A stretch of 23,396 nucleotides of DNA from IMG/VR virus record IMGVR_UViG_3300037104_000418, positions 1-23,396 of that record, one strand, 5' to 3'. Position 1 is the first letter of the stretch, and each line of letters begins with the position of its first letter. This document shows positions 391-23,396 of this stretch, piece after piece. The DNA comes from a virus. The translations under genes were made by a program, and so were the position numbers. The notes below the pieces were generated by a model. The model did not search any database, had not been told where the DNA came from, and worked only from the letters and a program-made list of their open reading frames with translations.

Positions 391-2097
391 TTAAGTTACT
401 GTGAATATTGGATCAAATGCTAATGTTGAAGATTCTGTTGTAAATATCATCAAAGGTATTGCTACTACAGCTGGATAGTTGATACTTATATCTGCTAATT
501 TTCCAACTGCAGTAAAATCAGCATAAATAGCTAATAAGTCGGCATTCGAACTACCATCTGTAGGCCATGCATTTCCCGTTCCATCAAAATTTCCAATTAA
601 ATTAGCAACAGGAGCACTTGCGTCATACAATGTGCGTAATTTTGCCAATGCAGCATCAATAGAAGTTGTATTTAATGAACAGTTTTTAGCATTAAATGAT
701 ACAAATTGTCTTGTTAGGGTTGTAGGTAAAGTTAAACTTGTAACATTAATGTTATTATTAATTTCAAAAGCTCCTCCTAAATTTGTTAATCCTGATACAT
801 CTAAATTACCCGTTAAATTACAATTATATGCCCAAAAATGCGTAACATTTGTTGAAGAGTTTGGAGTAATTATTTGTGTAAGAGCTGGATTAGAATAAAT
901 AGTTATTTGTCCTCCCAATCCTTTAAGACCTGATATATCTAAAGTTCCTGTTAATCCATTATTATGTACACCAAACGCCGTTATATTTTTAGAAGTATTT
1001 GCAAAAAGTATGTTTGTAAGAGTTTTATTATTATATGCTGCAAATGTTCCTCCTAAATTTGTTAATCCGGAAACATCTAAAGTACCCGTTAAGCTACAAT
1101 CGTATGCGTAAAACGATGTAAATGTTCGTGAGGAAGTAGGCATAATTATATGTTGAAGATTTATATTGGCATTAACTTGAAAATCTCCTCCTAATTGAGT
1201 TAATCCAGATACATCCAGCGTTCCATTTAAACTGCAATTATATGCCGCCCAACTTGTAAATATTTGTGAAGATACCGGATTTAAAATTTTTGTAAGATTT
1301 TTATTTCCATTTACATCAAAATTTCCGCCCAAACCAGTTAATCCAGATACATCTAATGTTCCATTTAAACTACAATCCGAAGCCCAATATATAGAAAATA
1401 TTTTTGAATTTTTTGGATTTAATATTTGAGTAAGATGATGATTAGAATAGACAATAAATGATCCTCCTAAACTAGAACAAGGTCTCATATCCAAAGTTCC
1501 TGTTAAATCACAAATCGGAGCCCAATACATAGAAAAATCAATATTAGTGCTTGGATTTAAAATTTGTGTAAGATGTGGATTGTTTTGAGCATTAAATTGT
1601 CCTCCCATTCCAGTAAGACCGGTCATATCTAAAGTTCCAGTTATATCACAGTCATTAATACCAAGAACATTAAGAGGTTGAGAACTAATAGGCAATATTA
1701 ATTTAGTTAATTTAGGATTAGAATATAAATTTAATGGCAAACCGCCTATTCCTAAATTACTTAATGATCCCAAATCTAAAGTACCTACTAAATTATCAGT
1801 ATTCATATTTAACGATGCTATACTTAAAGGTCCTGTAGTAGTACCGTTAAAAATCTGAACATATTTATTTCCTAATTGACTATAAGTATGTGAGAAATTA
1901 TTAGATGCATCGACAGTTGAACCATCTCCAAGACTCCAATTTAATAGGCCTGCGGTAGTAACAAAAGCAGGATCAAATGTTAATGTTGATGCTTCAGTAT
2001 AAAAATTTAAAAAACCAATAGAGGGAATTTCAAACTGTAATAGTATGTTATTATAAGTTATCGGAATATTGTTCCAAGATAGTATTTGTTTACTCAT
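391..2097 (-). CDS. PKD-like plus leucine-rich-repeat-like tail adhesin (568 aa)
   Basis: The product has an N-terminal domain of about 100 residues with a PKD-like motif (NWSLGDGS near residue 53, then SHTYSQLGNKYVQIF). This is followed by one longer repeat and then about seven repeats of 46 residues with the consensus GTLDVSGLTxLGGxF-x(5)-NxxLTxIL-x(14)-YxCSL. Each 46-residue unit looks like two leucine-rich-type turns and would stack into a solenoid. The last 90 residues form a separate tail domain (from about IDAALAKLRTLYD) ending in TTESSTLAFDPIF. No signal peptide or membrane segment is seen. It lies 16 bases after the tail fibre gene on the same strand and is followed by a truncated paralogue. 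A host-binding adhesin at the fibre or baseplate tip is the best guess, by inference. The repeats also match loosely the LRR-like proteins common in Bacteroidota. Confidence 0.75.
   Translation of the reverse strand: MSKQILSWNNIPITYNNILLQFEIPSIGFLNFYTEASTLTFDPAFVTTAGLLNWSLGDGSTVDASNNFSHTYSQLGNKYVQIFNGTTTGPLSIASLNMNTDNLVGTLDLGSLSNLGIGGLPLNLYSNPKLTKLILPISSQPLNVLGINDCDITGTLDMTGLTGMGGQFNAQNNPHLTQILNPSTNIDFSMYWAPICDLTGTLDMRPCSSLGGSFIVYSNHHLTQILNPKNSKIFSIYWASDCSLNGTLDVSGLTGLGGNFDVNGNKNLTKILNPVSSQIFTSWAAYNCSLNGTLDVSGLTQLGGDFQVNANINLQHIIMPTSSRTFTSFYAYDCSLTGTLDVSGLTNLGGTFAAYNNKTLTNILFANTSKNITAFGVHNNGLTGTLDISGLKGLGGQITIYSNPALTQIITPNSSTNVTHFWAYNCNLTGNLDVSGLTNLGGAFEINNNINVTSLTLPTTLTRQFVSFNAKNCSLNTTSIDAALAKLRTLYDASAPVANLIGNFDGTGNAWPTDGSSNADLLAIYADFTAVGKLADISINYPAVVAIPLMIFTTESSTLAFDPIFTVT
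950..1690 (-). repeat. Tandem 138-bp coding repeats in the LRR-like adhesin
   Basis: The 46-residue protein repeats of the adhesin correspond to 138-bp DNA units. Related sequences such as TCCAGATACATC and AATGTTCCATTTAAACTACA recur on the plus strand, and again near position 40-80 in the next gene. They could recombine within or between the two genes. Confidence 0.6.
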
Positions 2098-6516: not shown

Positions 6517-7203
6517 ATGAATCACCGAAAGATATATGACAATATAATACTGAAAGCTAAATCAGAAAATCGACAAAGACATCAAGGAACTTATTATGAA
6601 AATCATCATATAAATCCTAAATGTTTAGGCGGAAATAATGATAAAGAAAATTTAGTACTATTAACTGCAAGAGAACATTATATATGTCATAAATTGCTTA
6701 CATATATTTACAACGGCAACCCAGAATTAGTTTATGCATTTTTTCGAATGACTTTTAATAAAAATGTAAAACATCATTTGACATCTAGAGATTATATGTA
6801 TGCAAAAGAATTACGATCTATAACGCCTATGTCAAAAGAACAAAAAGAAAAATTAAGTGAATCACATAAAGGAAAAATTTCATTTTTTAAAGGAAAAACT
6901 TACGAAGAAATATATGGAAAAGAAAAATCTAAAAAATTAAAACAAAACTCAAGTAAATCTCGTTTAGGAAAAATTAGTCTTAAGCGTGGAACTACACTTA
7001 CAAAACAACAAATAGAAAAAATCATACATACATTAACAGGAAAAAAACAATCTAAAGAAACTATAGATAAACGAGTTAAAAAAATTAAAGGATTAAAACG
7101 AAAACGAATTATTTGTGTATATTGTAGTCAAGATTTTTCTGTAAGCACTCATAATAGATGGCACGGAGAAAATTGCAAACAAAAACTACCAAGTCGAGAA
7201 TAA
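6517..7203 (+). CDS. HNH homing-type endonuclease no. 1, NUMOD3-like and C-terminal zinc motif (228 aa)
   Basis: The N-terminal HNH core is clear: YENHH (His30, His31), Asn45 in KENLVLLTAREH, His54 and His58. It is followed by Lys/Ser-rich NUMOD3-like DNA-binding repeats (MSKEQKEKLSESHKGK, SKETIDKRVKKIKG). A likely zinc-binding end follows: Cys200-x2-Cys203...His216-x3-Cys220. Such enzymes nick or cut DNA at a target site and spread their own gene. It starts 2 bases after the S1-domain gene and ends just before a terminator, so it looks like an insertion behind that gene. Residues 1-105 are strongly similar to the endonucleases at 11922 and 17810 in this window, showing paralogy. No group I intron structure was recognised around it, so it appears to be a free-standing gene. 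Confidence 0.88.
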   Translation: MNHRKIYDNIILKAKSENRQRHQGTYYENHHINPKCLGGNNDKENLVLLTAREHYICHKLLTYIYNGNPELVYAFFRMTFNKNVKHHLTSRDYMYAKELRSITPMSKEQKEKLSESHKGKISFFKGKTYEEIYGKEKSKKLKQNSSKSRLGKISLKRGTTLTKQQIEKIIHTLTGKKQSKETIDKRVKKIKGLKRKRIICVYCSQDFSVSTHNRWHGENCKQKLPSRE

Positions 7204-7250: not shown

Positions 7251-8468
7251 ATGAAGTTGATAAGAGAAATATTATACGAGAAATTTAGTGTAGATGCAGA
7301 CCCTGTTCATGCTATGGGAATAGGAGAAATTCCCGTTGAAGATCTAATGATACAAATCTTAGCGATTGACAGAAAACATAAAAAGAAAATATCATATATA
7401 GACGCAAGATATTCAAGTTATTTAGAATTTGTAATGAAAGCAAAAAGTCTTACAAAACAACATGTGCGTTATTTGAAAAAAATAGTTGAAGAAGCTGGTT
7501 ACTTAGAGTTTTTTAATTCAACTGTTAAAAGAGATAATGAGAATAACATCATTTATTTTTATGTACAAGATCAATATAAAAAACTTATTATTAATGGTGA
7601 TTATCGAAAAAGAACGCGCCAGTTAAATGAGAAATTCGAAGAAGTATCTGATCCTGTAAAAGATTTAGGTGTTGGAATCATACCCGTTTATTACTACTTT
7701 TATATAAGCACGTGGGCTGCAAATATTCTTATTGATTTTAAAAATCCTAATCATATTAAATTACTTGAATGGCTTCAAAAATATAGCACACATAATAATT
7801 TTTATTCAGCAGAAATACAAAGAGTGCGTAGATTATGTAAAAAAGCTGGAGTAATACAAGAAGAAGATGATGGAAGTATTCATGTTCCCGAAGTAACAAA
7901 AGAAAGCGGTCCAGATATAATGTTGCGAGTAGCAAGCACAAATGATGTTGAACATTTATTTGATAAAGGCGTTTACCAAGAATGGGTATGGAATTTTAAT
8001 AGCGTCTCTTTAAATCCTGAAGATCATTTTAAACGTCGCTCAGAACTTCGTGGAAAAATAAAAGAAAGTCTTTATGAAAAGTTTTCTGAAGAAGGCGACC
8101 CTATAAAAGATTTACAAATTGGTCATGACGCTCAAATGGCGAAATTAAATGTCAAGATAAATTGGGATTTGAATCCGGAAGATTATCCGGAAGATCGTGA
8201 AGTTCAGATAATTGACATTATTACGTATAAAAAATACGAATTTGAAACTAAATCACATAGTTTTAATCAAAAACCATTACACATAAAAGTTTCTAGAATT
8301 ATTCATAGTGGTTTTGATAGTAAAACCTATGAAGAAAAAGAATTTTATTTTGCCACTTCAGATGTTGGTGAACCTTATGAAGGAAAAGAACTCGAAGGAG
8401 CACCTACACCAGAAAAAGCATTGGCCAAAGAAAAGAAATGGTTAGAAGAATATTTTGATAGCATGTAA
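7251..8468 (+). CDS. Three-module tagged protein of unknown function (405 aa)
   Basis: The open frame reaches back to 7158, but that would run through HNH no. 1 and the terminator; the ATG at 7251 gives the tag-like start MKLIREILYEKFSVDADP. The tag occurs three times: residues 1-25, 125-142 (LNEKFEEVSDPVKDLGVG) and 273-291 (SLYEKFSEEGDPIKDLQIG). Each copy precedes a module of about 115-150 residues. Modules 1 and 2 resemble each other (YLEFVMKAKS...VRYLKKIVEEAGYLEF versus LLEWLQKYST...VRRLCKKAGVIQ), so they arose by duplication; module 3 differs and is more beta-rich. The stop overlaps the next ATG by one base. I do not recognise the domains. The layout suggests a polyprotein that may be cut at the tags, which is a hypothesis. 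No membrane segment or signal peptide is seen. Confidence 0.75.
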   Translation: MKLIREILYEKFSVDADPVHAMGIGEIPVEDLMIQILAIDRKHKKKISYIDARYSSYLEFVMKAKSLTKQHVRYLKKIVEEAGYLEFFNSTVKRDNENNIIYFYVQDQYKKLIINGDYRKRTRQLNEKFEEVSDPVKDLGVGIIPVYYYFYISTWAANILIDFKNPNHIKLLEWLQKYSTHNNFYSAEIQRVRRLCKKAGVIQEEDDGSIHVPEVTKESGPDIMLRVASTNDVEHLFDKGVYQEWVWNFNSVSLNPEDHFKRRSELRGKIKESLYEKFSEEGDPIKDLQIGHDAQMAKLNVKINWDLNPEDYPEDREVQIIDIITYKKYEFETKSHSFNQKPLHIKVSRIIHSGFDSKTYEEKEFYFATSDVGEPYEGKELEGAPTPEKALAKEKKWLEEYFDSM

Positions 8469-8803
8469 TGAAAATAGTTAGAGAAAATTTAGGATTTACA
8501 GAAGACAGCGATCCTATCGTAGATATGGGCATTGGATTAGAAGCTATGATGAAAAAAAAATTAAAAAACTTTAAAGTAACAGATTTAATTGATTTTTTAG
8601 ATGAGATTCCTGAGATATATGACGAATATCGAGATGAAGATGCGAAATATGATGACATTTATTATGATGACATTCCATGGGAAATATTACATAAATTTGG
8701 TATAAAAGAATATATGCTTAAGAAAATTGAAAAAAATACAGGTGAGTATGACGGCTTCATTGATTGGGATGAAAAGACAGTTACATTAGGTGGAGGTGAT
8801 TAA
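8468..8803 (+). CDS. Small tagged acidic protein of unknown function (111 aa)
   Basis: The ATG overlaps the last base of the previous stop (TAATG), which suggests translational coupling. The product begins MKIVRENLGFTEDSDPIVDM followed by GIG, the clearest single example of the tag family in this window. The remaining 85 residues are acidic, rich in Asp, Glu and Tyr (IPEIYDEYRDEDAKYDDIYY), and end with a predicted helix and short strands (GIKEYMLKKIEKNTG). I recognise no known domain. Its place directly behind a tagged three-module protein suggests shared expression and possibly a shared destination. The gene call is supported by tag homology and tight packing. Confidence 0.75.
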   Translation: MKIVRENLGFTEDSDPIVDMGIGLEAMMKKKLKNFKVTDLIDFLDEIPEIYDEYRDEDAKYDDIYYDDIPWEILHKFGIKEYMLKKIEKNTGEYDGFIDWDEKTVTLGGGD

Positions 8804-8808
8804 AATTC

Positions 8809-8826
8809 ACGAATATATAAAATAAA
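8809..8826 (+). promoter_or_regulatory. Promoter-like box before the gene at 8837
   Basis: The sequence ACGAATATATAAAATAAA matches the recurring late-type box. It sits in the 33-base gap between two plus-strand genes and ends about 10 bases before the ATG at 8837. A closer ATG at 8825 opens only a three-codon frame. Confidence 0.55.
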
Positions 8827-8836
8827 TGCACAAATA

Positions 8837-9532
8837 ATGAGAGCGAAATTAGTATCCGAAAGTCTTGGCAAATCGCCGATATACAACAAAAAGGAAATAA
8901 TCGATTTTATGCTAGCAAATCAAGAACCGGAAACGATTGATTATCTTCGTCATGAATATGAAAATCTTCAACAAGACGAATTTAAAGATTTAGCAGCGTC
9001 AATAGGATTTGGGCCAGTTGGCAAATATTGGACTGTGTTAGACTTACAAAAAAATACGAATGAATCTATTAATGAAGGCTCTAACAAATTCAGAGATGAA
9101 GAAATAGAACAAATGGCAAATCAAATTGCTAGTATTGTATACATCACATATAACGGAGATGATGTTGATTATGAACCAAACGAAGAAGACACTGAAGAAG
9201 TAAAGCAAATAATCAAAAAAAATGTTGATATTACTAAACTTCGTTATGTAGACGAAGATGCAGATATAGATGAACCTTTAACTGAAGATGGTTTAGACGT
9301 ATTCGGAGATGAAGAGTGGATTTTAAATGAAGTGCCCGAAGAAGATATTGAATCTTTATACAACGCTTTTTTAAAATCTAAATTTTCAAATGAGAATGTA
9401 GATGATGATGACGATGAAGATACGGGTGTATTAGATAAAAGAGGAAATGTAATTAATACAGGCGATCACGTAGATTTAGATGACGATGATGAAGATGAAA
9501 TGGATCGCGTTGATAGAGAATATGACGATTAA
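8837..9532 (+). CDS. Acidic tagged protein of unknown function, two modules (231 aa)
   Basis: The start MRAKLVSESLGK matches the first half of the tag family but lacks the DPI-DMGIG half. A second tag-like stretch, NESINEGSNKF, occurs at residues 74-84 before a new predicted domain (FRDEEIEQMANQIASIVYIT), so the protein looks bipartite. Residues 1-72 form a small domain ending in FGPVGKYWTVLDLQKN. The C-terminal 100 residues are extremely acidic with runs of four to five Asp, which may be disordered or bind cations or basic proteins. It follows its own promoter-like box, and the next gene starts 2 bases after its stop. I recognise no enzyme family. Acidic phage proteins can be DNA mimics, but nothing here shows that. 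Confidence 0.7.
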   Translation: MRAKLVSESLGKSPIYNKKEIIDFMLANQEPETIDYLRHEYENLQQDEFKDLAASIGFGPVGKYWTVLDLQKNTNESINEGSNKFRDEEIEQMANQIASIVYITYNGDDVDYEPNEEDTEEVKQIIKKNVDITKLRYVDEDADIDEPLTEDGLDVFGDEEWILNEVPEEDIESLYNAFLKSKFSNENVDDDDDEDTGVLDKRGNVINTGDHVDLDDDDEDEMDRVDREYDD

Positions 9533-9534
9533 TT

Positions 9535-10965
9535 ATGAGAAAACCAAAACATTATAGTGTATTAGAAGTTCTCAACTTTTCTGAAATTGGATTAGTTTTT
9601 GAATTTTATTCAACAAAAGAATCAAATTTTATTGTTGATGACTTAACCCGTTTAACATCCAAGAATATTGTTTTAACAAACGAAGAGGGACATACAGCTA
9701 CATTTGCAAATGTTATTCTTTTAAAAGAGTACGAAGCCACGCGTGCACGATATAAATTAAATATCGCTCCGCAAAATTATCATTCAATACTCCCTGTAAT
9801 CGACAGTGTTTCAGGATGGATTTCTGAAAGCTGCGAGACCACTGCAGATACACAGTTAAAGATATCCTTATCCTTTAACCACCGTCATCTCGATACACTC
9901 TCAAGTCTTTCTCAAATGGATCCTACTCGATTGATTTTGAAATTTGATGAAAATGAAGTGTATAAAAGATTCCCAGAACAGAAGGGTTCTCCTTATGCAT
10001 TATCAATCAAAAATATTGCTCCAATTACAAATTACATTAATGAATCTGATATCGCAACCAACATTAAGTATATTTTAACAACTCCATACGCAGAATTCTA
10101 CGGAATCAACTTCAAAGAATACACAAGAGGAATTCTTGAATGTAATTATGTAGGTGGAAAAGATTATGCCAGTAAACCTGAAGAAATTAAAAATATTTTG
10201 GAATACTTCATTATAAAAACCTATCAAAGTATCAATGAAGAAGAATATAATGTTGATGAATCAATAGAAATGAAAAGAATAACTGAAGGCTTTGAAAAAA
10301 TGCAAATGGCATTCTACGATCCCGAAGTATTTATGAATGAATTTAAAGATATACGAGTTTATGTTGATCTTAAAACATCAGTGCAAACAGTTAAAAGTTA
10401 CTGGAATAACATAAGAAAAACGTTGTTTGAAATGATAATTAATGGCGGTTTAAGAGAAGGTCAATTTAATTATGATACACAAATTGGAAGATTTCAACTT
10501 AGAAAAAGCAAACTTACCAACTCTTTAAATTCAATTAAAGACATGGATTTGGTACATTGTGATTTATCAGGAATCATGGAAAATTGTTCTTTTGTTTCTT
10601 GTAATATCGGAAAAGCTAGAATTTACAACTCTAAATTTATTAGTAACAATAACGTTCAAGATTCATATATGGAAGGTGTCAGCGTTAACAAGAGTAATGA
10701 AATTGCTAGATGTTATGTTGTTAACAATGAAGAAATTATAAATTGTCCAGTTAAAGAAAGTGTTATCAAATTTGCAAGTCCAGGAAAGGCCATGGAAGCA
10801 GATGATAAAACTACAGTTATAGTTAAACAAATGCCTTTACCTCAATTAACCGATGCTGTTAATGTTAAGGAAATTCGAGATTATAGCTGGATTAAAAGTT
10901 TTAATAAGAAATCAGATGATGTAGGTTACGGTAATGCTTATGATAAAAATAAATATCCAAAATAA
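9535..10965 (+). CDS. Amidoligase-like protein with pentapeptide-like C-terminus (476 aa)
   Basis: The N-terminal 235 residues have features I associate with the COOH-NH2 ligase (amidoligase) family, which shares the glutamine-synthetase fold: an early strand with acidic residue (EIGLVFEFYS, 17-26), a strand with histidines (KISLSFNHRHLDTL, 109-122), and an E-x-N-Y-x-GG-K-D-Y segment (202-211) before a long helix. Family members are predicted to join amines to carboxyl groups on peptides or cell-wall material. I could not confirm all ATP and metal ligands, so activity is uncertain. Residues 338-411 form a pentapeptide-like right-handed helix pattern (CDLSG, CSFVSCNIGKARIYNSKF). A coiled or linker region lies between. 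It is packed 2 bases after the acidic tagged gene. Alternatively, it is a structural protein with no catalytic role. Confidence 0.5.
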   Translation: MRKPKHYSVLEVLNFSEIGLVFEFYSTKESNFIVDDLTRLTSKNIVLTNEEGHTATFANVILLKEYEATRARYKLNIAPQNYHSILPVIDSVSGWISESCETTADTQLKISLSFNHRHLDTLSSLSQMDPTRLILKFDENEVYKRFPEQKGSPYALSIKNIAPITNYINESDIATNIKYILTTPYAEFYGINFKEYTRGILECNYVGGKDYASKPEEIKNILEYFIIKTYQSINEEEYNVDESIEMKRITEGFEKMQMAFYDPEVFMNEFKDIRVYVDLKTSVQTVKSYWNNIRKTLFEMIINGGLREGQFNYDTQIGRFQLRKSKLTNSLNSIKDMDLVHCDLSGIMENCSFVSCNIGKARIYNSKFISNNNVQDSYMEGVSVNKSNEIARCYVVNNEEIINCPVKESVIKFASPGKAMEADDKTTVIVKQMPLPQLTDAVNVKEIRDYSWIKSFNKKSDDVGYGNAYDKNKYPK

Positions 10966-10976
10966 AATATAATGTG

Positions 10977-11168
10977 ATGCAAAAATTAGTTAGTGAAAGT
11001 TTAAAAGAGAGAATATCATTTTTAAAAGGTATTGAAGGCGTTCGTGAAGGACCCCTAAGAAAAGAAGAAAGAAATGATGGTTGGTGGGTAATGGGCGAAG
11101 GACATCTTGTATCTGCAAACGATGAAGAAGATGCAGACAGAATTATTAAAAATATAAAAAATACTTAA
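10977..11168 (+). CDS. Small tagged protein (63 aa)
   Basis: The open frame allows a GTG at 10974, but the ATG at 10977 gives MQKLVSESLKERISFLKG, matching the tag-like start MRAKLVSESLGK of the gene at 8837. The body contains a short motif, DGWWVMGEGHLVSANDEEDA, then a basic helix. This resembles a small two-strand fold with paired tryptophans, but I do not recognise a family. It lies between the amidoligase-like gene and a structural gene with gaps of 11 and 4 bases, so it is co-transcribed with them. The tag and tight packing support a real gene despite its size. Confidence 0.65.
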   Translation: MQKLVSESLKERISFLKGIEGVREGPLRKEERNDGWWVMGEGHLVSANDEEDADRIIKNIKNT

Positions 11169-11172
11169 AATA

Positions 11173-11907
11173 ATGATAGATACAGAATTTGTAAGTAGTG
11201 TAAACGGAGAAATAACCGCATCATGCGGTATTCCATTTTCGCTTCCTCCAATCGAAATTGAACGTTTGGTAAAACTAGAGGCCGAATGGATGTATCGTGA
11301 ATATCGAGATGCTGTTCAAGATGCTTGGTATGTTCTTGATAAAAAGTATTTTGGCACGGTCGAATGGAAACACACCAGAACTTTTCAATTACCTCCATGT
11401 GTAATGGCTATGAAATATGTTTATGAAATGACTTCAGGGCAAAGAGTATTCGGTATTAACGACCCTGATATGAGTTTTGATAGATTGATGGCTGCAGATA
11501 TGTATTTGACTCCGCTTTCTTCTGATCAGATAACTTACAGAACAATTCAATGGAGTTTTTGGGATTTGGCTAGATCATTTAACTTAAGAGATATTCAACA
11601 CCACTTTAGTATTAACACGAAAAGATTAATCATAACCGGTAGAGACCCAGCTGAATCACTTTGGTTAGCAACTTTAAATAAAATTCCTATAGAAGATTTA
11701 TATGATGATCCTCTTTTCTTAAAATGGGTAGTTGCAAGAGGAAAAATGCAATTAGCTAGAATATTGGGTACATTCAACTACACTCTTATTGGTGGTATAC
11801 AAATTAATTACGCAGATATTAGATCAGAAGGAAAAGAAGAATTAGACGCACTTAAAGAAAAGATCAAAACAGATTCGAGTGCTGATTGGTTTATGATGAT
11901 GTCTTAA
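11173..11907 (+). CDS. Probable virion structural protein, connector/neck candidate (244 aa)
   Basis: The product has helical N- and C-terminal parts around a beta-rich middle (QITYRTIQWSFWDLARSF...INTKRLIITGRDP). The C-terminal stretch, LYDDPLFLKWVVARGKMQLARILGTFNY followed by an INYADIRSEGKEEL helix, has the style of conserved phage connector or neck proteins in large Bacteroidota phages. That resemblance is from memory and not a confirmed match. No tag-like start is present and codon use is like the baseplate genes, which fits a structural rather than cargo role. HNH endonuclease no. 2 follows after 14 bases. Assembly at the head-tail junction is an inference; a baseplate component is the main alternative. 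Confidence 0.5.
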   Translation: MIDTEFVSSVNGEITASCGIPFSLPPIEIERLVKLEAEWMYREYRDAVQDAWYVLDKKYFGTVEWKHTRTFQLPPCVMAMKYVYEMTSGQRVFGINDPDMSFDRLMAADMYLTPLSSDQITYRTIQWSFWDLARSFNLRDIQHHFSINTKRLIITGRDPAESLWLATLNKIPIEDLYDDPLFLKWVVARGKMQLARILGTFNYTLIGGIQINYADIRSEGKEELDALKEKIKTDSSADWFMMMS

Positions 11908-11921
11908 ATAAAAATAAAAAT

Positions 11922-12677
11922 ATGAATTATCAACAAGTTTATGATAATATAATTCAGAAAGCAAAATCTAAAAATAGAGTACGATTTAAGAAAAAAGATT
12001 TAGGATATGTTTATTACGAAAATCATCATATTATTCCTAAGTGCATAGGAGGAATAGATGAAAAAGAAAATAAAGTTTTATTAACCGCAAGAGAACACTT
12101 TGTATGTCATAAATTGCTAACATATATTTATCCTAATAATAGAAAACTAGCATGTGCTTTTCATTATATATGTTTCAATAATAAAGCTAATAGAAAATTA
12201 TCTTCAAGAGATTATGCTCGTGCAGTAGAATTAATGAGAGCTATTCCTGTTTTACAATCATCAAAAGATAAAGCTAGAGAATCGATGAAAGGAAAAAATG
12301 TAGGTAGAATACAATCTGAAGAAACAAAAAAATTACGAGCTTTAGCTAATACAGGCAAAACACGAACACAAGAAACGAAAGATAAAACAAGAAAGTCCCT
12401 ATTAGGAAAAACCTTTTCAGAAGAACGAAAAAATAATATTTCAAAAGGTCATCTCGGGCAAACTCCATGGAACAAAGGAAAACCTACATGGTCTGGAAAA
12501 AAGAATCCAATGTATGGAACAACCACATATGATTTATGGGTTAAAAAATACGGAAAAGAAGAAGCCGATAAAAGAAAAGAAGCTAGACGAATTAAATTAT
12601 CAAAATCAAATATTGGAAAGCATAATAAGAAAATTGAAGAATCATTTTATCCTCGATTAAAAGAAACAATTGATTAA
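11922..12677 (+). CDS. HNH homing-type endonuclease no. 2 with unusual C-terminus (251 aa)
   Basis: The start at 11922 (MNYQQVYDNIIQKAKSKNR) aligns with the starts of the two paralogues; the earlier ATG at 11886 lies inside the preceding gene. The HNH core shows His35, His36, Asn50 and His59 in YENHH...KENKVLLTAREHFVCH. NUMOD3-like repeats follow (EETKKLRALANTGKTRTQET, SEERKNNISKGHLGQTPWNK), then a stretch with KNPMYGTTTYDLWVKKYGKE. Unlike the other two copies it lacks the C-terminal Cys/His zinc motif. It ends instead in EESFYPRLKETID, which matches two internal segments of the next protein (DESFKYPSLFET and EGFYPRLDEV). This suggests it took over the end of a resident gene when it inserted. 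It starts 14 bases after a structural gene and 3 bases before the 740-residue gene. Confidence 0.85.
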   Translation: MNYQQVYDNIIQKAKSKNRVRFKKKDLGYVYYENHHIIPKCIGGIDEKENKVLLTAREHFVCHKLLTYIYPNNRKLACAFHYICFNNKANRKLSSRDYARAVELMRAIPVLQSSKDKARESMKGKNVGRIQSEETKKLRALANTGKTRTQETKDKTRKSLLGKTFSEERKNNISKGHLGQTPWNKGKPTWSGKKNPMYGTTTYDLWVKKYGKEEADKRKEARRIKLSKSNIGKHNKKIEESFYPRLKETID

Positions 12678-12680
12678 TAC

Positions 12681-14903
12681 ATGGAAAACACCGACTTTAT
12701 ACCGATAACAGAATATTTAAATGAATCTGAGTTAATCGATTACATGAAGCAGGTTGCTGATATGTTCAAAGGACAAAGACAATCAGATTATTGGCAATGG
12801 AAAGTTGATCACGCCAAAGAATTGAAACATGTTAATACAGTTGAGATTCGTAAACAATATCCTCAAATAGATGAATACTTGAAAAATAGCCATCACCAAG
12901 TAGTACAAAAAGAATGCTATAAAAATGCAGGTCAACTTTGTATTAATTGTGAAGGCGTTGATTATGTAGAAGGTGAAATCTCGTATCATGGAATTCCTAT
13001 CGAACATGCCTGGAATAAAATAGATGGTAAGTATTTTGATATCACAAAGGATGTTTTATTTTCTAAAAATTCTGATTATGCAGAATATGTTTCTATAATT
13101 GAACTCGATACTAAAGAGTATTCTCATATGTTATTTAAACACAAACATTGGGGCGGATTTGTTCATGAAAAATATGCCGAAGAACGAGGAAAGAAATCAG
13201 TATTCGAAAGCTCAAAAATGGATAATTATTACGAAAAGAATTTTGGAATAAAACATGGATATAACACCGAAGCTGTAAATTCATATGATATAGTTGCCAA
13301 AGTAGGAAAATACAAAACACCTATTATGAAGAATCCTAAATCATTAGAAGGATTTGATCCAGATGTAAGAGCTATTTCAGATGAACAAGGAAATTTATAC
13401 GTATCATATAAACGTAAATATTTCAATCACGGAGAAATGGCCAATGCTCTTATTAAAGCAGATGTTATCAAAACGTTAATATACAATCAAGAAGCCGATA
13501 AAGAACCCGATTTGGCAGGAGTATATGATGATCAGACTCGTTTCATATTATTTGATAGATTAGAAGATGAAGATATCTTCGTTCCTAGCGATACTTTTGA
13601 ATGGGAAGGATCAGAAACAGAAAAATTATTAACCGCAGTTAAAAATAAAAATCCACAATTTAAATTTGATATGAAATATTTCGAAGATGATGACGATTAT
13701 GATTTAGATGAAAGTTTTAAATATCCATCATTGTTTGAAACTCCTGATAATTTTAGAATAGGAGGCAGACATTATGAAACGGAACGTGATTTATCTTATG
13801 CTTTTGAAGTAGTTTGGGATGAAGATAATGAAAAAATACTTGACGTTTTAGTTTCTAATAAAAAGAATTCTTATCATGGAACTGATCCGGAAACTGCCGG
13901 TTTTTGGAGAGGCGGTCCACAAAATGCAATCAATAACAAAACTAAACCTTATGGCGTAAATTGGAAAAAGATTTATCCCGGTCGTTTATTCATGGAGCCA
14001 AAAATAATTACCTTTTGGGTTTATCCTTCGAATAAAGAATTAAAACAAATTGTTGGCATAATTGAAAAAAAGAAAAAAATTCAAATCTATGATAATGATT
14101 GGAAGATAGAAATATATCCCGAGGGCATGCGATTTAAAGGACAGCAAGATTATAGCAACAATTATGATAGAGATAGAGAATCAAAAATAATTCCTATCGA
14201 AAAATATATTGGATCGAAAAAACCATCAGAAAAAGCTTATTTACAACACTTAGATACAAAAACTAAGCATAAAGTTCCTTATGGATTTGGTTCTAAGAAT
14301 CCCGCATATATGGGTAAGAGACAATGGCAAATGGCTTCTGCTACTGATGAAGGAAAAGATGAAGGCTTTTATCCTCGTTTAGATGAAGTATCTCATGAGA
14401 AAATTGGCAAATTCAACTTTAAAGATTTTGAAAAATGGGATGCAGGCGGAATTGATCATATCGAGTATAAAGATAGTGATAAACTTATTGATAAAAATCC
14501 TATGCTCAATAAAGCAAAAGAAAATAATGATAGAGGCAAGAAAATAACATACAAACAATCACAAGATTTTGGCAAAAAATTAATTGTAACTACTAAAGAT
14601 GGTGTTAAAATTTATTTTGTAGACGGAACTCATGTAAGAGACGTTAAAGGCAAAGGATTTGATATTGATTTTACGATGGGTGGTCATGCCTATATTTACC
14701 CACATTATATTCCTGAAGATGAAGCTTGGATCGATGAAGATATGGATAAGGAAGATAAGTACACTACGATAGTTCATGAACTTACTGAAAGAAAAGAGAT
14801 GAAAAATAAGCATGCTCCATACGATAAGGCGCATGATGATGCTTCTGCTAAAGAAGAAAAAGTCCGAAAAGAAATAGAAAAAGAAGAAGGCGAAGATAAA
14901 TAA
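12681..14903 (+). CDS. Multidomain protein: Cys-His-Asp protease-like plus HELTE metallopeptidase-like domains (740 aa)
   Basis: At the N-terminus a tag-like ITEYLNESEL (9-18) precedes a transglutaminase/papain-like segment: Cys79 in ECYKNAG, His109 in IEHAWN, Asp120 in KYFDIT, the usual order and neighbours for that fold. Residues 200-330 hold a second unit (VRAISDEQGNLYVSYKRKYFNHGEMANAL). Tag-like segments recur at 342-353 (DESFKYPSLFET) and 560-570 (EGFYPRLDEV), each before a new unit. The C-terminal unit contains IPEDEAWIDE and then VHELTERKEM (His699, Glu700, Glu703) with KAHDDA (His718) and Glu724/725, the pattern of a zinc-peptidase-like family. Both activities are inferred from motifs. 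The layout resembles a polyprotein. It follows HNH no. 2 after 3 bases and ends before a terminator. Confidence 0.65.
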   Translation: MENTDFIPITEYLNESELIDYMKQVADMFKGQRQSDYWQWKVDHAKELKHVNTVEIRKQYPQIDEYLKNSHHQVVQKECYKNAGQLCINCEGVDYVEGEISYHGIPIEHAWNKIDGKYFDITKDVLFSKNSDYAEYVSIIELDTKEYSHMLFKHKHWGGFVHEKYAEERGKKSVFESSKMDNYYEKNFGIKHGYNTEAVNSYDIVAKVGKYKTPIMKNPKSLEGFDPDVRAISDEQGNLYVSYKRKYFNHGEMANALIKADVIKTLIYNQEADKEPDLAGVYDDQTRFILFDRLEDEDIFVPSDTFEWEGSETEKLLTAVKNKNPQFKFDMKYFEDDDDYDLDESFKYPSLFETPDNFRIGGRHYETERDLSYAFEVVWDEDNEKILDVLVSNKKNSYHGTDPETAGFWRGGPQNAINNKTKPYGVNWKKIYPGRLFMEPKIITFWVYPSNKELKQIVGIIEKKKKIQIYDNDWKIEIYPEGMRFKGQQDYSNNYDRDRESKIIPIEKYIGSKKPSEKAYLQHLDTKTKHKVPYGFGSKNPAYMGKRQWQMASATDEGKDEGFYPRLDEVSHEKIGKFNFKDFEKWDAGGIDHIEYKDSDKLIDKNPMLNKAKENNDRGKKITYKQSQDFGKKLIVTTKDGVKIYFVDGTHVRDVKGKGFDIDFTMGGHAYIYPHYIPEDEAWIDEDMDKEDKYTTIVHELTERKEMKNKHAPYDKAHDDASAKEEKVRKEIEKEEGEDK

Positions 14904-14925
14904 CGATTGCAAGAAACAAATAATC

Positions 14926-14950
14926 AGGGAGCTATGACTCCCTTTTGTTT
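14926..14950 (+). terminator. Intrinsic terminator after the 740-residue gene
   Basis: AGGGAG and CTCCCT pair as a 6-bp stem around a 6-base loop (CTATGA), followed by TTTGTTTTC. It closes the accessory block, and the promoter-like box for the baseplate genes begins only a few bases further on. Confidence 0.8.
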
Positions 14951-14955
14951 TCTGT

Positions 14956-14970
14956 GGATATATAAAATAA
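14956..14970 (+). promoter_or_regulatory. Late-type promoter box before the baseplate wedge genes
   Basis: GGATATATAAAATAA lies 7 bases before the ATG of the gp25-like gene and right after a terminator. It is one of the best matches to the recurring box in this window and probably drives the genes from 14978 to 17827. Confidence 0.65.
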
Positions 14971-14977
14971 AAAGTAA

Positions 14978-15340
14978 ATGATAAAAGATTTGTACATAAG
15001 AAGTTCCGAAGATCCAAATTATCAATTTGGTGTGTTAGAACATACAGATGCAATTGAATCAATTATCACGAAGATTAAAATGATATTGGGAACTCGTTCT
15101 GGACAGATATTCGGAGATTTAGCATTTGGAGTTGGAATTGAAGATTTGATCTTCGAAACAAGAATCAATAAAACTCAACTTGAAGAAAAAATTAAGATGC
15201 AATTTGATCGTTATATTTCTGAAACAAAAGATTACTCCATAGTTCCTCAAGTTTCTTTCGGGAAAGCAGATGGATATGATTATGCCGTTATCGATATTTT
15301 TATAGATAATCAAAAAGTAATTGGACTTTTAATAAAGTAA
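14978..15340 (+). CDS. 25: Baseplate wedge subunit, gp25/gpW-like (120 aa)
   Basis: The product is close to the usual length of T4 gp25 (about 130 residues), the baseplate wedge protein that joins the sheath to the wedge and belongs to the gpW/gp25 lysozyme-like family without lysozyme activity. The diagnostic segment is residues 36-60: ILGTRSGQIFGDLAFGVGIE followed by DLIFE, matching the family pattern in which a TRxGE-like turn precedes FG--L--L-F. The N-terminus (LYIRSSEDPNYQFGVLEHTD) and the C-terminal strands (YDYAVIDIFIDNQKV) also fit. It is first in a wedge cluster that continues with gp6/J-like and gp7/I-like proteins, the conserved W-J-I order of contractile tails. The ATG follows an A-rich leader with no Shine-Dalgarno sequence. 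Confidence 0.85.
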   Translation: MIKDLYIRSSEDPNYQFGVLEHTDAIESIITKIKMILGTRSGQIFGDLAFGVGIEDLIFETRINKTQLEEKIKMQFDRYISETKDYSIVPQVSFGKADGYDYAVIDIFIDNQKVIGLLIK

Positions 15341-15341
15341 T

Positions 15342-15629
15342 ATGAAAGCAAAATATATTAACGAAGCTTTTGATGAAGAAACAGATCCAATTGATGATAT
15401 GGAAATTGGAAGAGTGAAATGTCCTCAGTGTCAAGGAGAAGGTTCTTATCCAGATCATGATCAGAATTCAATTGATCCACGAACTGGAGAACACGATTGT
15501 AGATATTGCCCAATAGAAGTTGAATGTGAAACCTGTGAAGGAACAGGATATGTAAGTAAGAAAAAAAAGAAAGAATATGAAGATAAATCGATAAGTCATA
15601 TAGATGATGCAATTGATATACCCTTTTAA
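15342..15629 (+). CDS. Tagged zinc-finger protein, DnaJ-like CxxCxGxG motifs (95 aa)
   Basis: The start MKAKYINEAFDEETDPIDDM followed by EIG is a full copy of the tag family. Directly after it comes a cysteine-rich body: Cys27-PQ-Cys30-QGEG, Cys53-RY-Cys56, and Cys62-ET-Cys65-EGTG. The first and last match the CxxCxGxG repeat of the DnaJ/Hsp40 zinc-binding domain, but only two canonical repeats plus one plain Cys pair are present instead of four, and there is no J-domain. The C-terminus is basic then acidic. It lies one base after the gp25-like gene and 15 bases before the gp6-like gene, so it is expressed with the baseplate wedge. Possible roles are a structural zinc-knuckle protein, an assembly chaperone or virion cargo; none is shown. 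Confidence 0.7.
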   Translation: MKAKYINEAFDEETDPIDDMEIGRVKCPQCQGEGSYPDHDQNSIDPRTGEHDCRYCPIEVECETCEGTGYVSKKKKKEYEDKSISHIDDAIDIPF

Positions 15630-15644
15630 AAATAAAACAATAAT

Positions 15645-17549
15645 ATGCCACAAATTTTTAGTACCAGTAGGATACGTTTTCAAGAATTATACCAAGATGC
15701 GTTAAACTTTGTAAAAAACTCGTATGGAGCATTAGGACAATACTTTACATTAGCTTCTCCTATGGGTCAATTACTTCAAGTAGTTCTAAGTTATGGACGT
15801 ATGATTTTATTCTATAACGAAGATTCAGTTACAGAATTAAACATCAATACTGCAACTCGACCTGCCAGTGTTAAGGGTGTTGCAACATTAACAGGACATA
15901 ATCCATCAAGACCTATTTCGGCAAGAGGAACTTTGATTCTTCAATATAATGGTCAGAAATTACCACCCGGAACAAGCATTATTTCTATTCCAAATTACAC
16001 TTTATTGGCAAATACTCAAAATGGTTTAACTTATACGATTACACTACCCGGTGAAGAATTAGTTTTTGATTTAACTAGCGTTACAAATGCAGTAGAAGTA
16101 AATATAGTTCAAGGAAAAACAGAATATCAGCAAGCAACTGGAACTGGAGACCCATTGCAATCATTCAACTTTCAGAATAAAAAAGGAGCTTCCATCGATA
16201 ATTATTACGTTAACGTTTTTGTTAACGGAACAAAATGGGATGTAGTTGATTCAATTCTTGATATGACTATTGATCAAACAGCAGTAATGGCTAAAACGGG
16301 CCAAACTGGTGGTATAGATCTTTTCTTTGGAAATAGCTTTAATGGAGCAATGCCTCCTTACGGTTCAACTATTTTAATTGAATATCTTATAACTGATGGT
16401 GCAGCAGGAAATTTAAATGCTCAAAATAACAACTTAAATAATAGTTGGAAATTTTCTACGCCAGGATTTTCTCTTAATGGTGATCAACTCGATCTAAACA
16501 AATATCTCAACGTTCTTATTAAAAATGAGATTATGTTTGGCGCTCAAGAAGAACCTCTTTATTTAACGAGATTATTAGCTCCACATCTTTCAAGAAGTTT
16601 TGTTTTGGCAAATGAAAATAATTACATTTATTTTTTACGTAAATTGAATATCTTCACGATAATTGATGCTATCCCTGGATTTGCAACATTTGAAGATCAG
16701 TATGCTGCAGATAAATACAATCAGGCCAAAACAACCTTTGAACAATTAAGCACGCAATATCAACAAATTATTTCTACAAACGGAGTTAGTTCAGTGCAAG
16801 CTACAACATTAAAACCTCAATTAGATAATGCTTCTTCACAACTTAATTATTATACACAACAAGTCGAAGCCCAAAAGAAAGATGATAATACAGTTTATTT
16901 GTTTTTAGTTCCCGATGTTAATAAGAGAATTCAATCAAACGAAAATTATTATACATGTTCCTTAGAAGCATTTATTATGTCCGATAGTGAAAAAGCTGCA
17001 ATCTTAGATTATATCGAACAAAGTGGTCAAAGAATCTTAACTGTTGATAATGCAATTTTGAATTTGCAATTTCCAAAGTTTTCAATAAATATGTCTCTTA
17101 TATTATGGGAAGGCACAGTATATGATACAGTACGACAAGCAATCATTTCGGCCACCTCAGATTATTTCTTAAAAAATACTCGTAGAGATAGAATTCCGGT
17201 TTCAGATTTAATTCGAATTATTGAAGGACTTGATGGTGTTGACTCAGTTAATGTTTGGTTTGATGCAGATGCAAAAAATTTAAACATTTATAAAACATTT
17301 TATGGAATAGATGATTATGGCGATATTATTCTTCAAAGATTTGTAAAAGACGCATTTGGAAACAACGTTCCTGTTAATGATATATACGCATTAATTCGTG
17401 GAAACTTTGAAAACGCCCAAGGAACATTTTATGAAGATAGTTTAGTTAAGAATAAATTATCAAACGTAAACATACAAGTAAGAGGTTACACTCAGAAAAA
17501 TATCAACTCAGAAAACAACATAGCAATCGTAAATAACATCACAGGATAA
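15645..17549 (+). CDS. 6: Baseplate wedge subunit, gp6/gpJ-like (634 aa)
   Basis: Length (634 residues; T4 gp6 has 660) and position directly after a gp25-like gene fit the gp6/baseplate-J family, which forms the ring of dimers around the hub. The N-terminus (RFQELYQDALNFVKNSYG...SPMGQLLQVVLSYGRMILFY) and the following NINTATRPASVKGVATLTGH resemble the J-family start, where a helical segment leads into the attachment region. A long middle insertion has a beta-rich part (to about residue 310) and a Gln-rich helical stretch near 360-410. The C-terminal part has the conserved core (VDNAILNLQFPKFSINMSLI, TVYDTVRQAIISATSDYFLK, IPVSDLIRIIEGLDGVDSVN). The next gene starts 2 bases after the stop. Confidence 0.82.
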   Translation: MPQIFSTSRIRFQELYQDALNFVKNSYGALGQYFTLASPMGQLLQVVLSYGRMILFYNEDSVTELNINTATRPASVKGVATLTGHNPSRPISARGTLILQYNGQKLPPGTSIISIPNYTLLANTQNGLTYTITLPGEELVFDLTSVTNAVEVNIVQGKTEYQQATGTGDPLQSFNFQNKKGASIDNYYVNVFVNGTKWDVVDSILDMTIDQTAVMAKTGQTGGIDLFFGNSFNGAMPPYGSTILIEYLITDGAAGNLNAQNNNLNNSWKFSTPGFSLNGDQLDLNKYLNVLIKNEIMFGAQEEPLYLTRLLAPHLSRSFVLANENNYIYFLRKLNIFTIIDAIPGFATFEDQYAADKYNQAKTTFEQLSTQYQQIISTNGVSSVQATTLKPQLDNASSQLNYYTQQVEAQKKDDNTVYLFLVPDVNKRIQSNENYYTCSLEAFIMSDSEKAAILDYIEQSGQRILTVDNAILNLQFPKFSINMSLILWEGTVYDTVRQAIISATSDYFLKNTRRDRIPVSDLIRIIEGLDGVDSVNVWFDADAKNLNIYKTFYGIDDYGDIILQRFVKDAFGNNVPVNDIYALIRGNFENAQGTFYEDSLVKNKLSNVNIQVRGYTQKNINSENNIAIVNNITG

Positions 17550-17551
17550 TT

Positions 17552-17827
17552 ATGGCAGTAAATAATACAAAGCGAAATTTATATACGACAAGACCTTCGT
17601 ATTTTTATCAATCAAAACATTTTAATGATGTTTTCCTTAATTTAGGATTTAATTACAAAGGTAAATTACTTAAGAAAGGATTATCACCGGAAATGTATGC
17701 CAATCAATTACAGGTTCCAATGTATAGCACGATTGAAGCTATGTTAAATTTCTTAATTGAACATACAAAGATAGTTAAAAAATGGTATTCAATTGCACAC
17801 GATAAAAACTCAATGAACGTAAATTAA
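17552..17827 (+). CDS. Small protein in the baseplate cluster (91 aa)
   Basis: It starts 2 bases after the gp6-like stop, so it is coupled to it, and lies between the J- and I-type wedge genes. The product is basic and contains FNDVFLNLGFNYKGKLLKKG and an apparently helical end (YSTIEAMLNFLIEHTKIVKK). I recognise no family; a small wedge or hub partner is likely from its position. Its last six codons overlap, on the opposite strand, the 3' end of HNH endonuclease no. 3. The final residues (HDKNSMNVN) could therefore have been reshaped by that insertion, and a longer original C-terminus is possible. Confidence 0.65.
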   Translation: MAVNNTKRNLYTTRPSYFYQSKHFNDVFLNLGFNYKGKLLKKGLSPEMYANQLQVPMYSTIEAMLNFLIEHTKIVKKWYSIAHDKNSMNVN

Positions 17828-18484
17828 CCGGCATTTATCACCATGATATTTTTGATAATTACCTGCGTCAAATAATCGGTTACAGTGTGGACATAATTTC
17901 TTAGGTTTATTTAATAATCCTTTAGATATATTATTCTTATGTTTTTGAGATATATTTTTATCTTTAAGTTTTTTTCGTATGTTTTCAATGCTTTCTTTTG
18001 AGTGATGTTTATTAAACATTCCATTTTTATCACCTACATTAGCTTTTTTCTTATTTGTTTCGTTGGAATATTTTTTGCCAATGTGTCTTTGACTATTTTT
18101 TTCATTATGTTCAGGCGATTTACTTTTTCCTGTAAGCGCTAAACTTATTTTTGTTTTTGTTTCTTTAGATATTGGAGTATTTCGAATTAATTCAATGGAA
18201 TACGCATAATCTCTTGATGTTATTCCGTACTTGCGTTTATTCATAATACTCATTAAATGAAATGCGCATACAATTTTCCTGTTTTCTTTATAGATGTATG
18301 TTAGCAATTTATGACAAACAAAATGTTCACGAGCAGTTAATAAAACTTTATTGTCTTTTTCTTCACTTCCATTTATACACTTAGGAATAATATGGTGATT
18401 TTCATAGTACTCACCATTTACTCGAATTCTTTTTTGATTTCGAGCGTTAGAAATTATTTTTTCGTATACTGCTTGGTGATTCAT
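17810..18484 (-). CDS. HNH homing-type endonuclease no. 3, inverted in the baseplate operon (224 aa)
   Basis: The minus-strand product has the same build as endonuclease no. 1: YENHH (His30, His31), Asn45, His54 and His58 in KVLLTAREHFVCH, then NUMOD3-like repeats (SKETKTKISLALTGKSKSPE, ISQKHKNNISKGLLNK), and a C-terminal Cys198-x2-Cys201...His214-x3-Cys218 zinc-like motif. It ends with LIYVH and its TGA overlaps the 3' end of the convergent 91-residue gene by 18 bases. Being on the opposite strand to the surrounding late genes, it needs its own promoter. Only a weak candidate (AAGATATAACGATATTA) is visible upstream on the minus strand. Insertion between the J- and I-type wedge genes is typical of selfish endonucleases that target conserved sites nearby. 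Confidence 0.87.
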   Translation of the reverse strand: MNHQAVYEKIISNARNQKRIRVNGEYYENHHIIPKCINGSEEKDNKVLLTAREHFVCHKLLTYIYKENRKIVCAFHLMSIMNKRKYGITSRDYAYSIELIRNTPISKETKTKISLALTGKSKSPEHNEKNSQRHIGKKYSNETNKKKANVGDKNGMFNKHHSKESIENIRKKLKDKNISQKHKNNISKGLLNKPKKLCPHCNRLFDAGNYQKYHGDKCRLIYVH

Positions 18485-22991: not shown

Positions 22992-23396
22992 TTACATGTA
23001 ATCTTCTCTGTGGGCTGCATCCCAACCTATAATTTTTAAACCACCTATGTGAATATTTTTATTACGAAGAAATAAATGTACATATTCGTCTGTCATGTTT
23101 TGACAACCAAAACAAACGAATTGACCCTGAATATCAACAGGCATTCCTTCAAGAGAGTGTAATAAGGGATTTTTAGAACAATTGAAATTACCTCTAATTG
23201 ATTTTGGACAGCCTTTTAACGATGTCAATTTATTTTCAAACAACATTAAATTAAGAACATCAGTCTGCGGTAAATATTCAACAGATGTTAATTCATTGCG
23301 CCCTAAATATACGTTGCCGTTAACTGTTTTTGGAAATCCTCTAGTACTTGTTAATCCACTTTCATAAAATTGTATTTCGTTAACATCTAGTTGTTT
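22992..23396 (-). CDS. Leucine-rich-repeat-like protein, 5' end outside window
   Basis: The frame is open from the window edge, so at least 134 residues are encoded; an internal ATG at 23246 is not a convincing start because the repeat pattern continues upstream of it. Repeats of about 20-25 residues follow the pattern N-LTS(L/V)-x-P-x-x-V-x-G-N (RNELTSVEYLPQTDV, ENKLTSLKGCPKSIRGNFNC, LHSLEGMPVDIQGQFVC), the style of small LRR-like proteins common in T4-related phages. A non-repeat cap follows (DEYVHLFLRNKNIHIGGLKI) and ends in HREDYM. It is convergent with and directly abuts the 22617 gene. Its role, in the virion or the host cell, is unknown. Confidence 0.7.
   Translation of the reverse strand, partial: KQLDVNEIQFYESGLTSTRGFPKTVNGNVYLGRNELTSVEYLPQTDVLNLMLFENKLTSLKGCPKSIRGNFNCSKNPLLHSLEGMPVDIQGQFVCFGCQNMTDEYVHLFLRNKNIHIGGLKIIGWDAAHREDYM

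Follow-up and report, generated by a model that had tools for sequence, protein, structure and literature searches.

The window, as we call the whole of the 23.4-kb viral contig analyzed here (IMG/VR record IMGVR_UViG_3300037104_000418, 23,396 nucleotides), encodes proteins that share a peptide tag of 25 residues, and so does a relative, a 405-kb phage contig from IMG/VR (G001). The tag is probably a two-part signal for virion cargo in a clade of giant T4-like phages, and the cargo appears to be laid out in the manner of a polyprotein. The tag, its two halves, the shuffling of the modules behind it, a prohead protease and a matching site in the capsid protein can all be recognized at the sequence level. 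That internal copies of the tag delimit exchangeable modules, from which the polyprotein layout follows, is the main point, and one that the original prediction had missed.

Searched with a sequence profile of the tag, the window yields exactly five copies (E 1.9e-15 to 1.1e-12), the same as those in the original prediction: at the starts of the proteins at 7251, 8468 and 15342 and twice inside the first of them (Table 1). The predicted cut falls after residue 10 in Tag 1 (base 7280) and after base 15365 in Tag 5, while cleavage of the tag at 8468 (VRE/N; a slash marks the predicted cut throughout) is doubtful because the x-I-N-E stretch is missing. Two (L/I)-x-E sites had been read at the start of the 7251 protein; the glutamate of LYE (residue 10) is indeed the one at the predicted cut, but that of LIRE (residue 6) is part of the targeting half. 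The shorter forms claimed at 8837, 10977 and 12681 do not rise above noise (independent E-value 0.9-5.3), and the SINEGSNKF stretch of the 8837 protein sits internally (residue ~76). The gene at 12681 is still relevant, since its G001 ortholog (39% identical over the C-terminal 143 residues, in the same gene order) bears the full tag. The FYPR(L/I)xE linker, also seen in this gene, is a rare pattern that occurs five times in tagged open reading frames (ORFs) against 0.65 expected.

The two halves of the tag become apparent when its copies are compared by position, 216 N-terminal against 120 internal. N-terminal copies read M-K-[LI]-V-[RK]-E-[HY] and then [IL]-[NYF]-E-K-F. In internal copies residues 1-7 are lost, with a relative entropy of 0.2-0.9 bits against 1.0-2.0 in N-terminal ones, and conservation jumps exactly at P3 of the predicted cut (0.71 to 2.10 bits); from there on, [LIV]-N-E/K-F...DPIxDMGIG is kept and is as conserved as in the N-terminal copies. 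The predicted cut is preceded by [ILV]-x-E in 324 of 335 tags (209/216 of the N-terminal ones). A capsid targeting sequence is an N-terminal peptide of ~10-20 residues that ends in (L/I)-x-E, and the predicted propeptides show a main peak at 10 residues (95 tags) and a second class of 8 (57), the two lengths that dominate.

Such sequences are known from the T4 internal head proteins IPI-IPIII, where they are cut by the prohead protease gp21 (PMC9026906, PMC12373910). The T4 genes ipII and ipIII start with MKTYQEFIAE/A, a peptide of the same length as the first part of the tag, with common residues at positions 1, 2, 6, 8 and 10 plus an aromatic residue or His at 7; two of them, K2 and E6, lie outside the protease motif. 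Genetic work on T4 traced targeting mainly to residues 4 and 7, with processing depending on 8 and 10 (PMC9026906). The difference between N-terminal and internal copies matches this division, since the targeting half is lost internally and the cut-site half is kept. Some untagged G001 genes (e.g., at 37374, 80951, 145389, 177664 and 243551) have N-termini with the targeting half only (MKYVKEYLNE, MRAKLLNE); a loose pattern for this half finds 29 untagged G001 genes against 14 expected (maximum of 22 in 200 shuffles).

The mechanism that we propose is as follows. Residues 1-7 (MK[LI]V[RK]E[HY] or the shorter MRAK[FY]) would act as a T4-like capsid targeting sequence by which the new protein docks on the scaffold core of the prohead, and residues 8-10 ([IL]-[NYF]-E) would be the cut site of a gp21-type prohead protease that releases the cargo at K-F. 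Longer proteins repeat the cut site together with K-F-x-E-x-S-D-P-I-x-D-M-G-I-G about every 115-120 residues, and one targeted polyprotein may thus be processed within the head to give several small mature modules, all starting with KF...DPIxDMGIG. The modules, which are shuffled between genes, would by analogy with the T4 internal proteins reach the host cell together with the DNA and there counter host functions or defences. Here we infer how the tagged proteins are cleaved, packaged and injected and what they do; that DPIxDMGIG serves the mature cargo as a docking or ejection signal is a guess.

Among 225 non-redundant tagged ORFs, 64 contain between two and eight tags, and the median length of their internal modules is 96 residues; such repeated predicted cut sites between independently folded modules are what is expected of a polyprotein. 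What follows the tag falls into 110 sequence groups (70 of them single), so that unrelated proteins stand behind one leader, as with capsid targeting sequences. All but one of the multi-tag ORFs (63/64) mix module groups; 22 groups occur both as first and as later modules, and 20 both alone and in multi-tag ORFs. The 7251 protein had been thought to contain a duplicated domain, but clustering separates its modules into three families, each with a relative elsewhere; that of the second is the first module of a non-syntenic tagged G001 protein (136-138 kb). At the G001 position syntenic to the 7251 protein there is a different tagged polyprotein between flanking genes that are ~75% identical, which argues that cargo turns over faster than structural genes. 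Searching IMG/VR for homologues of the whole 7251 protein gave zero relatives.

The modules include ankyrin repeats, a leucine-rich repeat (LRR)-like repeat, SH3-like barrels, zinc fingers, nucleotidyltransferase-associated domains and many orphans. A Pfam search of 142 tagged proteins found ankyrin in 23 of them and no peptidase among the 14 families detected, hence no embedded peptidase of the sort that marks polyvalent proteins; beyond ankyrin, Pfam, PHROGs and PADLOC yield little. Fold searches of PDB and BFVD gave no match for the commonest unknown module (47 members). An AlphaFold model of one module family, built from a 44-sequence alignment, gives the tag a predicted local distance difference test (pLDDT) score of ~50 and the 85-residue module mostly values above 90; as expected, a disordered tag before a folded module would fit an accessible cut site ahead of an independent domain. 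The 7251 protein alone gave no usable model (pLDDT 38). The window also encodes, at 22992-23396 (-), an LRR-like repeat (LTSLKGCPKSIRGNFNCSKN) that matches a common tagged module in type and is truncated by the window end.

A way to compare the predicted cut with known phages is provided by one polyprotein (L035) that consists of a nucleotidyltransferase-like domain, a tagged module, the junction FLALDE/S and then DUF6267 (E 1e-69). Free DUF6267 proteins of Stenotrophomonas, Methylophilales and Pelagibacter phages start with MMKFTQFLAE/S, LINFSKYITE/D and MYNDLLVE/D, T4-like targeting peptides that end where the junction lies. The DUF6267 versions of two cyanophages have no T4-like targeting peptide.

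The enzyme that would make these cuts is encoded by G001, a gp21-type serine protease (Peptidase_S77, E 2e-17) with the GEL(D/N)HP and SSR motifs kept. A second contig (G002) has Peptidase_S77 too (E 7e-18), and it was not found on small contigs, the window included. In G001 the protease is fused to a scaffold-like region in a single ORF of 781 residues (306658-309003), which holds 12 [LIVM][NYF]E sites against 2.1 expected, a sixfold excess. A similar protease-scaffold fusion is annotated in Tenacibaculum phage PTm1. The predicted propeptide of the G001 capsid precursor ends at HALNE/AAMGG, and its relatives have LNE, LYE or MNE in the same alignment column, with N or Y at P2 as in the tag. 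T4 gp23 has its site (FLTE/AEIGG) further downstream, outside this alignment column, so the capsid-site match to T4 is by rule, not by position. The original prediction of a sorting and cleavage tag is thus supported by propeptide lengths, the cut-site pattern, the split between N-terminal and internal copies, the protease, the capsid site and the DUF6267 junction, all of them sequence features.

The profile search of relatives that had been suggested, with a list of what follows the tag, gave 88 copies in G001, and also 58 in an 84-kb contig and 24 in a 162-kb contig, in addition to the 110 module groups. Scanning IMG/VR with the tag core returned 100 stretches of DNA. On G001 a 26-base core pattern has 48 matches and its reversed control none, and the tag profile had 0 matches in 20 shuffled G001 proteomes. 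The profile found no tag in Lak-A2, two other huge phages, PTm1, T4 or five further phages, nor did tblastn of a tag of 34 residues find any match in INPHARED, even at E 10. Four single matches came from GTDB genome contigs; L139, the one that was inspected, is a bacterial protein matched by chance (10.8 bits) and was rejected (the counts over 335 tags leave it out, those of ORF and module grouping include it, and the conclusion is unaffected). No paper describing the tag was found in a literature search. Within G001, replication enzymes and sugar genes bear no tag; the late-promoter motif TATAAATA is no commoner upstream of tagged genes than elsewhere, which in so AT-rich a genome says nothing either way.

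Several observations weigh against a cleaved cargo signal. The most conserved part, DPIxDMGIG, lies past the cut and has no T4 counterpart, which implies selection beyond the function of a capsid targeting sequence. P1' is Lys in most tags and Ala in T4 ipII/ipIII and gp23, and most tagged contigs are fragments with no protease match. No virion proteomics, cleavage or injection data were found for these phages. The first of these points would also fit an uncut peptide by which modules bind a common partner through DPIxDMGIG (e.g., scaffold, shell or a phage compartment), multi-tag proteins being intact multivalent chains. This half is equally conserved in N-terminal and internal copies, and polyvalent multidomain proteins are known from phages (PMC5512222). 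We regard this as unlikely, as it leaves unexplained why internal conservation starts exactly at P3 of (L/I/V)-x-E, why there are propeptides of 10 and 8 residues, and why the same motif appears in the capsid protein and the scaffold. Self-cleavage at the Asp-Pro bond, a further possibility, would likewise leave the P3-P1 pattern unexplained.

Less likely still is a destination outside the head (a phage nucleus or the host membrane, for instance), with the likeness to T4 a coincidence. Internal compartments are possible in jumbo phages (PMC13282480) and the DPI half has nothing similar in T4, but five of the ten residues are those of the T4 targeting peptide, the two outside the protease motif among them, tagged genes are located within the baseplate gene block, and the DUF6267 homologues of other phages have T4-like targeting peptides at the same place. 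The very high copy number, and the homing endonuclease-like genes that adjoin tagged genes in the window, could hint at a selfish or recently copied DNA cassette of no use to the phage. This we find scarcely credible: codon choice at the invariant tag residues varies almost as much as background usage would give (identity 0.57, with 0.50 expected), hence it is the peptide and not the DNA that is under selection, and each half of the tag is kept separately.

The window carries a T4-like baseplate block (gp13-, gp25- and gp6-like genes). Gene order is the same as in G001, structural proteins are 72-78% identical, and gp13-, gp25-, gp6- and gp53-like genes flank the tagged genes in both. The Cys-rich module of the Tag 5 protein is kept between gp25 and gp6 in G001. 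Three related HNH homing endonuclease-like ORFs, at 6517-7203 (+), 11886-12677 (+) and 17810-18484 (-), adjoin tagged or structural genes; the one at 11886 has a C-terminal ESFYPRLKE that resembles the cut-site linker. The protein at 391-2097 (-) matches repeats within a G001 ORF of ~5000 residues (198289-213297), which may be a giant tail fibre or surface protein. The closest named relatives of the capsid protein of G001 come from Prevotella Lak megaphages (48%) and other huge metagenomic phages. G001 also carries a gene for PorP/SprF, a type IX secretion protein typical of Bacteroidota.

Table 1. Tag copies, modules and neighbouring genes in the window (a slash marks the predicted cut).
Feature	Position	Strand	Evidence
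Tag 1, N-terminal, MKLIREILYE/KFSVDADPVHAMGIG	7251-7328	+	Profile E 1.9e-15; 36.5 bits
Module 1 of 7251 protein	7329-7604	+	Clustering: relative within four-tag protein of contig L034 (cluster 15)
Tag 2, internal, RQLNE/KFEEVSDPVKDLGVG	7605-7679 (profile match 7611-7679)	+	Profile E 1.1e-12; 34.1 bits
Module 2 of 7251 protein	7680-8054	+	37% identity over 177 aa to G001 protein; clustering
Tag 3, internal, KESLYE/KFSEEGDPIKDLQIG	8055-8126	+	Profile E 1.4e-14; 38.0 bits
Module 3 of 7251 protein	8127-8465	+	Cluster 18: relative is first module in L066 (G004)
Tag 4, N-terminal variant without xINE, MKIVRENLGFTEDSDPIVDMGIG, then acidic domain (to 8803)	8468-8539	+	Profile E 6.2e-14
Possible targeting half only, MRAKLVSE/S	8837-8860	+	Like 8-residue class MRAKFINE; not significant
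gp13-like gene	11173-11907		phrog_211, E 7e-6
Protein with short start like a capsid targeting sequence (MENTDFIPITEYLNE/S) and internal FYPRLDE site	12681-14903	+	Start itself not significant
gp25-like baseplate wedge gene, structural neighbour	14978-15340	+	phrog_261, E 0.0012; 74% identity to G001
Tag 5, N-terminal, 8-residue class, MKAKYINE/AFDEETDPIDDMEIG	15342-15413	+	Profile E 5.5e-14
Cys-rich, DnaJ-like zinc-binding module behind Tag 5	15414-15629	+	58% identical to G001 g0216; DnaJ_CXXCXGXG E 4e-4, below cut-off
gp6-like baseplate wedge gene, structural neighbour	15645-17549	+	phrog_219, E 8e-19; 72% identity to G001

Compared with known systems, the tagged proteins are closest to T4 IPI-IPIII in having a 10-residue N-terminal peptide with the same anchor residues, an (L/I)-x-E cut and unrelated proteins behind one leader, and G001 has a protease, scaffold and capsid protein of T4 type. 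They differ from T4 in the ~90 tag copies per genome (against three), in the internal copies that split polyproteins, in the conserved KFxExSDPIxDMGIG past the cut, in the Lys at P1' and in the 8-residue class. The tag is absent from all T4-like genomes tested. Polyvalent proteins, which Iyer et al. (2017) likened to polyproteins (PMC5512222), are also multi-domain, mosaic and probably virion-borne, with shuffled modules; there, release is by embedded peptidase domains, of which the tagged proteins have none, and a uniform tag between modules and modules that also exist as single tagged genes set the latter apart. The ejection proteins of phiKZ and SPN3US (PMC5694885, PMC10052503) are likewise proteolytically matured in giant phage heads and ejected, features inferred from sequence in our case, but their cut sites are A-x-E or S-x-E, the propeptides are mostly long and module polyproteins have not been described. 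Finally, T4-like cyanophages and their relatives have a cluster of GC_71/DUF6267, nucleotidyltransferase and cytidyltransferase that has DUF6267 in common with one tagged polyprotein; the genes are separate there and fused by tag and site in the tagged clade.

Taken together, the picture that we somewhat favour is that giant T4-like phages, probably of Bacteroidota, bear in the head a combinatorial arsenal of ~90 small modules, synthesized as tagged polyproteins and cut by the prohead protease as the head matures, with the DPIxDMGIG start as a second signal on the mature cargo, e.g., for head docking or tail exit. If true, the head protease of a tailed phage would here process polyproteins, and the tag might serve to load foreign proteins into very large capsids. 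A search with a short pattern would list likely head cargo, more than 100 orphan modules, most without known relatives. Since T4 internal proteins inhibit type IV restriction enzymes (PMC12373910), these modules would be candidates for new anti-defence proteins.

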